The notes under the pieces were generated by a model, which saw nothing but the letters and a program-made list of their open reading frames with translations, searched no databases and was not told the origin of the DNA. From Actinoplanes sp. TBRC 11911 (GTDB lineage: Bacteria; Actinomycetota; Actinomycetes; Mycobacteriales; Micromonosporaceae), in NCBI RefSeq assembly GCF_012933445.1, contig NZ_JABBNC010000003.1, positions 310,001 through 374,000 on the forward strand: a stretch of DNA of 64,000 nucleotides, read 5' to 3'. This document shows positions 54,783 through 56,232 of the stretch, in pieces. The translations under genes and the position numbers were made by a program. The stretch's first letter is position 1, and each line of letters starts with the position of its first letter.

Positions 54783-55442
54783 GTGTTCCTGCGGTTTAAG
54801 AAGCCTGAGCTGCCCACCCCCGACCAGGCACTGCCCGGCCGTCTCCTGGAGATGCCGGTCGCCGACAAGCACACCGTGCTCGGTACCCCACTCCAGGGTC
54901 CGTGGCCGGAGGGCTACGAGGTCGCGGTCTTCGGAATGGGCTGTTTCTGGGGCGCCGAGCGAATCTTCTGGCGGCTGGACGGCGTCTACTCGACGTCGGC
55001 CGGATACGCGGGCGGTTTCACCGGCAACCCGACATACGAAGAGGTCTGCTCCGGGCACACCGGCCACGCCGAGGTCGTCCAAGTGGTCTACGACCCCGCC
55101 AAGATCGGCTACGACGAGCTGCTGAAGGCGTTCTTCGAGAACCACGACCCGACCCAGGGCATGCGCCAGGGCAACGACGTGGGCACGCAGTACCGCTCGG
55201 CGATCTACACCACGACCGACGAGCAGGCGGTCATCGCGGAGGCCACGCTGGCGGCGTTCCAGCCGATCGTGACGGCGGCCCGCCACGGCCAGATCACCAC
55301 CGAGATCAGGCCGCTGACGCGTTACTACTTCGCCGAGGACTACCACCAGCAGTACCTGTCCGAGTCGAAGAACCCGAGAGGTTATTGTAACCATGGCCCC
55401 AATGGCCTGACTTGTCCGGTTGGTGTCGCCAAGATCGCCTAG
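54783..55442 (+). CDS. msrA: peptide methionine-S-sulfoxide reductase
   Basis: A 219-residue MsrA. The catalytic Cys54 is in [15 protein letters not shown], followed by [56 protein letters not shown] and [19 protein letters not shown]. The C-terminus, [20 protein letters not shown], carries resolving cysteines. GTG 54783 has AAGGGAG upstream. The last 25 codons use TAT, TGT, CAT, AAT and ACT, unlike the GC-ending codons before them, and an almost identical, GC-rich copy of the same tail lies at 56146-56232. The native 3' end seems to have been replaced during insertion of the adjacent toxin-antitoxin pair. Confidence 0.93.
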
Positions 55443-55449
55443 GTACTAC

Positions 55450-55480
55450 GGGGCATCGGGCTCGCCCACCCGATGACCCC
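55450..55480 (+). terminator. terminator hairpin after msrA
   Basis: GGGG-C-ATCGGG (55450-55460) pairs with CCCGAT-GA-CCCC (55469-55480) around an 8-nt loop, just after the msrA stop and before the toxin-antitoxin promoter. Confidence 0.5.
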
Positions 55481-55500
55481 GTCCCCGTCAGGCTCAGAAA

Positions 55501-55535
55501 TCTGTACAGACTTCGCGCCAGTAACTGCCTATACT
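55501..55535 (+). promoter_or_regulatory. promoter and operator of the RelBE-type module
   Basis: TATACT (55530-55535) is a good -10 box 6 bp before the antitoxin ATG, so the message is nearly leaderless. TCTGTACAGA (55501-55510) is a perfect 10-bp palindrome over the -35 zone, suited to antitoxin autorepression. Confidence 0.65.
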
Positions 55536-55541
55536 TAGCGC

Positions 55542-55826
55542 ATGACTGCCGTGCCGTTCACCGACGCCCGCAACCGCCTTTCGGAACTCATCGATGAGGT
55601 GGCCTCGACCCACGAGCGGATAGAGATCACCAGACACGGCCATGCCGCCGCGGTGCTCATCTCGGCCGACGATCTGGCGGCATTGGAGGAGACCCTGGAG
55701 GTCCTGTCCAGCGCCGAGGCCATGCGGCAGCTTGCCGAGTCCAAGGCAGCCGTCGAAGCCGGCGACGTCCTCGACGCCGATGAACTCGCCGCGTTGATGG
55801 CGAAGCGGTCGAAGCAGGCACGGTGA
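55542..55826 (+). CDS. type II antitoxin, Phd/YefM/RelB type
   Basis: A 94-residue antitoxin. The N-terminal DNA-binding half is FTDARNRLSELIDEVASTHE followed by RIEITRHGHAAAVLISADDLAALEET, the Phd/YefM signature. The C-terminal helix (SKAAVEAGDVLDADELAALM) wraps the toxin. It overlaps the toxin start by GTGA at 55823-55826. The pair sits between two copies of the msrA 3' end. Confidence 0.9.
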   Translation: MTAVPFTDARNRLSELIDEVASTHERIEITRHGHAAAVLISADDLAALEETLEVLSSAEAMRQLAESKAAVEAGDVLDADELAALMAKRSKQAR

Positions 55827-56113
55827 CTGGCCCGGCGCCCGGCCGCTACCGACTTCAGGTCGCCGGCCCAGCCGCACGCGCCTTGGCCGGACGGCTGCCA
55901 GAGAAGATCGCCGCAGCCGTCTACGAGTTCATCACCACTGCCCTCCTCGACAACCCGCAGCGCGTCGGCAAACGACTGCTTCTGCCGCCCTTCGAGGGGA
56001 CCTGGTCAGCCAGGCGGGGCACGTATCGCGTTCTTTACGAGATCGACGAAGACGACCGCGTCGTGACCGTGACGGCCATCGAACACCGCGCCGACGCCTA
56101 CCGATCGCGTTGA
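55823..56113 (+). CDS. type II toxin, RelE/ParE family
   Basis: A 96-residue RelE-fold protein. It has YRLQVAGPAARALAGRLPEK, PQRVGKRLLLPPFEGTWSAR and GTYRVLYEIDEDDRVVTVTA ending IEHRADAYR: the beta-strand order and the basic Arg/Tyr/His positions of ribosome-dependent mRNA endonucleases. GTG start, translationally coupled to the antitoxin. Function as RelE is from family knowledge. Confidence 0.9.
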   Translation: MTGPAPGRYRLQVAGPAARALAGRLPEKIAAAVYEFITTALLDNPQRVGKRLLLPPFEGTWSARRGTYRVLYEIDEDDRVVTVTAIEHRADAYRSR

Positions 56114-56145
56114 CCCAGAGGCCCGAATCAGTACATCACTGCTCG

Positions 56146-56232
56146 TCAGAGTCAAAAAATCCGTACGACTATTGCAACCACGGCCCGAACGGCATGACCT
56201 GCCCGGCCGGCGTCGCCAAGGTCGCCGAGTAA
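56146..56232 (+). pseudogene. displaced 3' end of msrA
   Basis: Twenty-eight codons and a TAA read [19 protein letters not shown] followed by PAGVAKVAE. This repeats the msrA C-terminus ([19 protein letters not shown], then PVGVAKIA) in native GC-rich codons. There is no start. It ends directly against the stop of the next, convergent gene, as an original msrA end would. Confidence 0.92.

Follow-up and report, generated by a model that had tools for sequence, protein, structure and literature searches.

In Actinoplanes sp. TBRC 11911, a small toxin-antitoxin operon is inserted at the 3' end of msrA, and its two junctions form a reciprocal chimera: on the left, host codons lead into a core and then into a recoded msrA end, and on the right, a foreign arm leads into a second core copy and then into the native msrA end. 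We consider it probable, although well short of assured, that the insert is a miniature integrative cassette lacking a recombinase, which would use the msrA-end site of serine-integrase elements with the integrase supplied in trans. The window, that is, the whole stretch of 64,000 nucleotides that was analysed, contains the following features:

54768..55442, + strand: msrA (peptide methionine sulfoxide reductase), with a replaced 3' end (PF01625, TIGR00401)
55343..55367, + strand: host side of the attachment site (B arm), made up of ordinary msrA coding sequence immediately 5' of the core, conserved as msrA coding in left junctions
55368..55376, + strand: left core copy AAGAACCCG, where host sequence gives way to incoming sequence (switch in third-position GC)
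55377..55442, + strand: recoded replacement msrA end, cassette-borne (shared with the first ends of other loci; agreement of AT-codon pattern)
55542..55826, + strand: YefM/Phd-family antitoxin, 94 aa (PF02604, 2e-23; TIGR01552, 5e-16)
55823..56113, + strand: ParE/RelE-superfamily toxin, 96 aa (PF05016, 6.8e-9)
56129..56154, + strand: incoming attachment-site arm (P arm), seen in the information profile of right junctions and scoring 37.3 bits in the arm model; common to serine-recombinase elements and cassettes of unrelated cargo
56155..56163, + strand: right core copy
56164..56232, + strand: native msrA end left behind (26/26 genus loci nearer to it; collinear with locus L010)
56233..57055, - strand: next gene pair (131 and 159 aa), which in locus L047 lies between msrA ends

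The msrA gene is intact (its PF01625 match is at 2.3e-62), and the recoded end is its last 66 nt, directly after the core. Third-position GC drops across the core, from 0.96 in the 25 preceding codons to 0.52 in the 21 that follow. In 26 single-end control loci of the genus, the corresponding averages are 0.96 and 0.97, and the minimum after the core is 0.76. These controls are what is left of the 29 genus loci after L017 and L025, which bear cassettes, and L033, which bears a decayed one, were dropped; they include L027, which has an element-like end and a partial second end seen in its genome. The comparison bears out the preliminary description, which had contrasted AT-ending codons in the first end with GC-rich native codons in the second and had proposed that the incoming DNA supplied the replacement end: host codons run up to the core and the recoded end follows.

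The msrA end is repeated in direct orientation over 103 nt at 73% identity, with copies at 55347 and 56134 (a period of 787 nt). The repeat is not a chance one, as a model of the msrA end gives two matches in the 64 kb on both strands. The recoded and second ends match at 47/63 nt. The second is native, the old end left behind as had been claimed, because all 26 control loci are nearer to it than to the recoded end (mean 52.0/63 versus 44.6/63) and because L010 is collinear with it. A full second msrA upstream of this tail, which the preliminary description had named as evidence against its own reading, was looked for and rejected; the end alone is repeated. Paralogues were also rejected as the source, the two other MsrA-like genes of this genome being on other contigs and 43–45% identical. 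One point needs correcting: the sequence to the left of the second core (56129–56154) is the attachment-site arm, which reads SES ahead of KNP by chance and is no remnant of msrA coding sequence.

An uninterrupted msrA junction, which had been proposed as something to seek in relatives, is present in L010 (genome G038), where a homologue of the window's next gene pair directly follows msrA. When the window flanks are joined at the core, they are collinear with this locus, with 76–93% identity in 12 of 13 60-nt bins across bases 61–840; the thirteenth bin is at 65% and identity is lower beyond base 840. This empty site, together with the chimeric junctions on both sides, supports the view that the toxin-antitoxin pair was inserted at the msrA 3' end. 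The second end was also said to abut the next gene as the original end would. It does so, as in L010, but the next pair is probably not the ancestral neighbour, as it lies between msrA ends in L047. A homologue of 58932–59252 is found near msrA in 16 of the 29 genus loci (fetched with 1.5-kb flanks), approximately 0.1–0.15 kb 3' of the gene in L014, L023, L029, L031 and L032. Therefore, the ancestral msrA neighbour is probably the one located 2.7 kb further on in the window. From this and from the position of the next pair in L047, the window seems to have received at least two successive insertions at the msrA end.

Two further observations concern this neighbourhood. The module at 56233–57055 gives no match in Pfam or NCBIfam; it recurs beside or between msrA ends in L010, L041, L047 and L066 and is possibly an undescribed toxin-antitoxin pair. 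In the same genome (contig C23), on the - strand at window coordinates of approximately 66169–65618 (16169–15618 of locus L044), a partial msrA end is followed by a gene whose product, by eye, is the YCII-type protein that L074, L076 and L077 carry between their msrA ends. This looks like a displaced, inverted cassette, approximately 10 kb from msrA and just outside the window.

The cargo of the insert consists of two frames that overlap by 4 nt, and both families of a type II system are present in this one operon; an NCBIfam search gave no match for the toxin. The pair had been called RelBE-type. A toxin-antitoxin pair is indeed present, but PF02604 and PF05016 make it YefM/Phd plus ParE and not strict RelBE. 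From what is known of these families, we take the YefM-ParE pair to be a putative ordinary type II toxin-antitoxin that probably stabilises the cassette. Within the insert of approximately 0.7 kb, open reading frames and Pfam reveal the antitoxin and toxin alone, with no recombinase, integration, replication or transfer gene, which agrees with the earlier account of a small insert without a recombinase. Core copies, an arm and chimeric ends on both sides also provide the site-specific-element layout that had been suggested.

How frequently the msrA end is occupied was determined by searching genomes with the C-terminal 40 residues of MsrA. Of the 65 genus genomes with a match (67 searched), 12 have two or more msrA ends. 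In the family, at least one end is present in 346 of 354 genomes, more than one in 52 and at most one in 302. In two of the 40 multi-match genomes outside the genus the second match is on another contig, which leaves 50/354 genomes whose extra ends share a contig with msrA and are no more than 16 kb away from it; G099, one of those 40, was left out for having its matches on two contigs. Sixty loci were examined, 58 of which contain msrA. The ends have nearly uniform orientation (one is reversed in L082), and arrays reach five or six ends in L064 and L094 when weak ones are counted. Beyond this family, four of four sampled genomes from another family of the same order (G365, G378, G387 and G395; genus g56) each give three or four matches to the msrA end, which suggests that arrays may form at this site there as well. 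Separately, L085 has an extra msrA end at 9671–9790 on the - strand (contig C70 of genome G253). It includes part of the msrA body, lacks an arm and stands behind a 145-aa frame, away from msrA.

The 67 end-to-end intervals fall into size groups: 2 are below 200 bp, 42 are 445–1402 bp, 13 are 1.6–5.3 kb and 10 are 7.5–15 kb. Small inserts mostly comprise one small operon, and some have no clear recognisable gene. A Pfam search of 20 chosen proteins identified MazG, GNAT (twice, once beside TacA1), carbonic anhydrase, YxiG-like, YCII, TacA1, ParE, Fic (twice), AbiEii, PemK/MazF, two serine recombinases and RepSA; one protein gave a ribbon-helix-helix match below its cut-off and four gave no match. 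The YefM-ParE pair is complete or nearly so in the window and in L041, L043, L048, L056, L057, L063, L069 and L082, both frames are present in L066, and in L052 the toxin is truncated.

These sizes bear on a different origin of the insert, as the remnant of a full serine-integrase element that has decayed to a toxin-antitoxin pair between two ends, an immobile CIME. Elements of this type are defined by decay in the accessible text of PMC5704250. Decayed elements do occur at the msrA site: L038, L039 and L073, arrays that mix element remnants with cassettes, hold a broken RepSA or a recombinase fragment, and the cut-short toxin of L052 also fits. Decay would, however, have had to reduce many different cargos to about one operon each, as 42 of the 67 intervals are 0.45–1.4 kb. 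For this and for reasons given below, we regard a remnant as unlikely, though it deserves more weight than the other alternatives.

The large inserts connect the site to integrases. Nine of the ten inserts of 7.5–15 kb encode a large serine recombinase, of family A in L036, L062 and L086 and of family B in L040 and L087–L091. The recombinase frame adjoins or overlaps the right-hand msrA end in eight of the nine, and ends 1.7 kb away in L062. Pfam finds Resolvase in both families, and Recombinase plus RepSA in a family-A element; the two site recombinases tested both match PF00239 and one also matches PF07508. The tenth large insert (L067, 955–12491) has no relative of either recombinase; by eye, its 11.5 kb contains reverse-transcriptase-like and transposase-like frames. 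Integrase use at the msrA-end site is well supported, and the sequences predict that at least two families of large serine recombinases, borne on elements of 7.5–15 kb, have their attB at the msrA 3' end.

In family B elements, the host half meets a recoded right half, GIGPNG (slightly changed in L090), at the left junction, and at the right junction a foreign arm runs into the native half. Across six of these elements, variation at the third position of the Lys codon is confined to the left junction and variation at that of the Asn codon to the right junction, the latter being seen in one element only. The strand-exchange point is therefore placed between these codons, AAR and AAY, and is predicted to be the AA of the core. 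A further B element lies approximately 9 kb from msrA in G054; its arm scores 31.3 bits, and an msrA end of a third kind follows. A third kind of end, which reads GPTGL and then (N/M)YCAP, was seen in L048, L049, L050, L051 and L096, and L050 has genes that by eye are AICE-like, which suggests a further element family at the msrA site.

The integrase that would act on the cassettes was also sought. B homologues (E<=1e-60) occur in 14 of the 354 genomes, nine of them at 64% identity or more, two of these being partial. Six of the 50 multi-end genomes contain such a homologue, all with inserts of approximately 10 kb, and at this threshold it is absent from the other 44. In the genome of the window itself, family B gives no match at E<=1e-60 (4 of 41 first-look candidates scored) and family A just a weak one, in a 254-aa frame. 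No such site was found within 1.5 kb on each side of its three PF07508 recombinases, the best score being 7.3 bits. These results speak against the cassette reading.

The arm is the part of the incoming site that the window shares with these elements. At right junctions, positions -25 to -1 read AGTACTnCACCGTCCGCCAGAGTCC with clear information content, and positions -90 to -31 carry almost none. The profile was taken from 41 right junctions that passed a first filter against msrA-like upstream sequence; eight of these proved on closer inspection to be msrA-like or degenerate, which leaves approximately 33 as the source of the signal, among them the six B elements and cassettes of unrelated cargo. 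In the remaining 19 right junctions, the sequence is msrA-like from about position -24 onwards. For scanning, the model was built without nine of the 41 junctions, namely the window's own and the eight that are msrA-like or degenerate upstream. With this model, the window arm scores 37.3 bits and no other sequence in the 64 kb exceeds 8 bits on either strand, in a scan that could miss weak arms since the weakest training arm scores 2.1 bits. The distance from the toxin stop to the arm is 15–17 bp in all seven right junctions of YefM-ParE cassettes, a constancy that argues against a decayed remnant. The right arm is common to the window and the B elements, but the recoded right half of the cassette's site, which stands at the left junction, reads NHGPNG and not GIGPNG; the integrase that moves the cassette may therefore be another than family B, one that has not been seen.

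The cassette, recoded end included, recurs in other genomes and in other genera, which answers the proposal to look for the same foreign msrA tail beside such pairs. The window's recoded end shares 53–58 of 63 nt with the first ends of L061, L063, L057, L052, L056, L042 and L069. Across these eight loci, the pattern of AT-ending codons agrees at 0.85, compared to a mean of 0.50 and a maximum of 0.58 in 5000 shuffles. Synonymous identity among the recoded ends was expected to be higher than in controls and is not (0.75 versus 0.78), a test weakened because the controls are saturated with GC. Behind this end, L061 and L042 have different cargo, and therefore the recoded end is not tied to one operon. 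The same end is present on contig C127 of the same-genus genome G031. A scan of genome contigs, in which records of this strain or its close kin may be absent, gave one named match, Actinoplanes liguriensis KL571319.1, and a scan of viral contigs gave none. Carriers of an msrA end among plasmids and phages were 10 plasmid records, none actinobacterial, and two unannotated faecal contigs labelled as phage. The spacer from the msrA stop to the cassette promoter is poorly conserved, at 44–60% in one 50-nt bin, which counts against the cassette reading.

The presence of the same pair at the same site in several genera could also result from one ancient insertion in the ancestor of the family, followed by many losses. 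Divergence at four-fold sites speaks to this. In six of eight comparisons, the cassette genes agree at 72–79% of four-fold sites and the host genes of the same pair of loci at 53–62% (window versus L063, L069, L057, L056, L043 and L041; Fisher p 1e-5 to 0.012, uncorrected; all comparisons share the window, and msrA is the only host gene for L063, L057 and L056). The remaining two, L048 and L082, have no excess cassette similarity, as vertical inheritance would predict. The lower synonymous divergence of the cassette in the six, the different cargos at one site and the 302 of 354 family genomes with at most one msrA end weigh against it, and we consider old vertical inheritance very improbable. 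A unit found in several genera, with synonymous divergence below that of the host genes in those six comparisons, likewise argues against a decayed remnant.

Movement between genomes need not have involved an integrase each time. The insert could have been made once by an integrase and then spread by homologous recombination through msrA, the repeated ends and the neighbouring genes. The repeated ends provide the homology, arrays such as L066 appear to have lost intermediate ends, and L043 has the same toxin-antitoxin pair behind an ordinary GC-rich first end, as exchange or amelioration would produce. Such exchange would carry the msrA body along, yet the msrA body is 77–79% identical and the cassette genes 89–94% identical between the window and L063, L069, L057 and L056. 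Moreover, third-position GC breaks at the core itself in the window and seven loci, from 0.92–1.0 up to the core to 0.52–0.62 after it. Spread by homologous recombination is thus a poor account of the whole, and we give it a small probability.

Under the integrative-cassette reading, the unit would have three parts: the toxin-antitoxin operon, an attachment arm of the element type and a substitute end for msrA. A putative circular form would carry the arm, the core and the replacement end, and a serine integrase acting in trans would exchange strands at the core, placing the cassette into msrA. The host gene would then be completed by the recoded end of the cassette, with its native end pushed behind the cassette. 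We infer that the mini-cassette itself is the moving unit.

A broader interpretation is possible but tentative: the msrA 3' end may be an integron-like cassette platform run by serine integrases, on which single-operon units are captured, stacked and exchanged between genera. The cassettes, rich in toxin-antitoxin systems, would each have their own arm and msrA end, and separate elements at the same site would give the integrase. The preliminary description had likened the insert to site-specific elements, and the insertion at the msrA 3' end and the supplied gene end stand; the many different cassettes and the serine-integrase site, which came from the survey, were unforeseen.

Several known systems resemble parts of this arrangement, the nearest being CIMEs, pseudo-SCC and the ssrA islands of Dehalococcoides. 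The staphylococcal cassette chromosome (SCC) and pseudo-SCC elements occupy the 3' end of rlmH, with serine recombinases, composite arrays and units that lack a recombinase. The architecture is similar at msrA, that is, the 3' end of a conserved gene, serine recombinases, composite arrays and recombinase-less units, but the target differs and SCC has other recombinases and larger units. Integrons use a tyrosine recombinase and attC hairpins, and their cassettes are units of one or two genes, with toxin-antitoxin and GNAT cargo, in arrays of mostly one orientation at one site. Unit size, cargo and co-oriented arrays at one site are thus alike, whereas the recombinases at msrA are large serine enzymes (PF00239, PF07508) and the site is coding sequence. 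Compared to serine-integrase elements, the window insert lacks the recombinase that is present in nine of the ten large inserts at the same site.

Cis-mobilizable elements (CIMEs) are by definition decayed ICEs or IMEs and, in the accessible text of PMC5704250, are flanked by att-site copies, have no integrase and stand in tandem with other elements at a gene end. The window insert shares these traits, as both attachment junctions are kept and no integration or transfer genes are recognised. It differs in being a single operon of approximately 0.7 kb that recurs as a unit in several genera; derivation by gene loss fits the decayed elements at the msrA site, but most inserts form a small size class. 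In the portion of PMC3146451 available, the ssrA islands of Dehalococcoides target the tmRNA gene, and sixteen carry an integration module. They resemble the msrA arrays in having a large serine recombinase (compared by description), tandem islands between copies of a gene 3' end, a short motif just 5' of each copy and tandem islands thought to lack integration genes. At msrA, the target is a protein gene with a recoded end and most units are single small operons. Among AICEs with a serine recombinase, as described in the available part of PMC3218068, a likeness is seen in family-A element L036, whose genes include RepSA and a serine recombinase; replication and transfer genes are absent from the window insert. 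The term "methionine sulfoxide" was not found in that part of PMC3218068, and a literature search, with most subscription papers and preprints outside its range, gave no report of msrA cassettes.

The msrA arrangement therefore differs from known layouts in combining a protein-gene target that has recoded ends with a size class of single operons. To judge from the sequences, single toxin-antitoxin operons would act as very small, recombinase-less integrative units, each supplying a gene end of its own so that the target gene is spared. The arms, the point of exchange and the families of integrase described here are directly testable. If the units are indeed mobilised in trans, then this family of soil actinobacteria would have an integron-like cassette economy supported by serine integrases.
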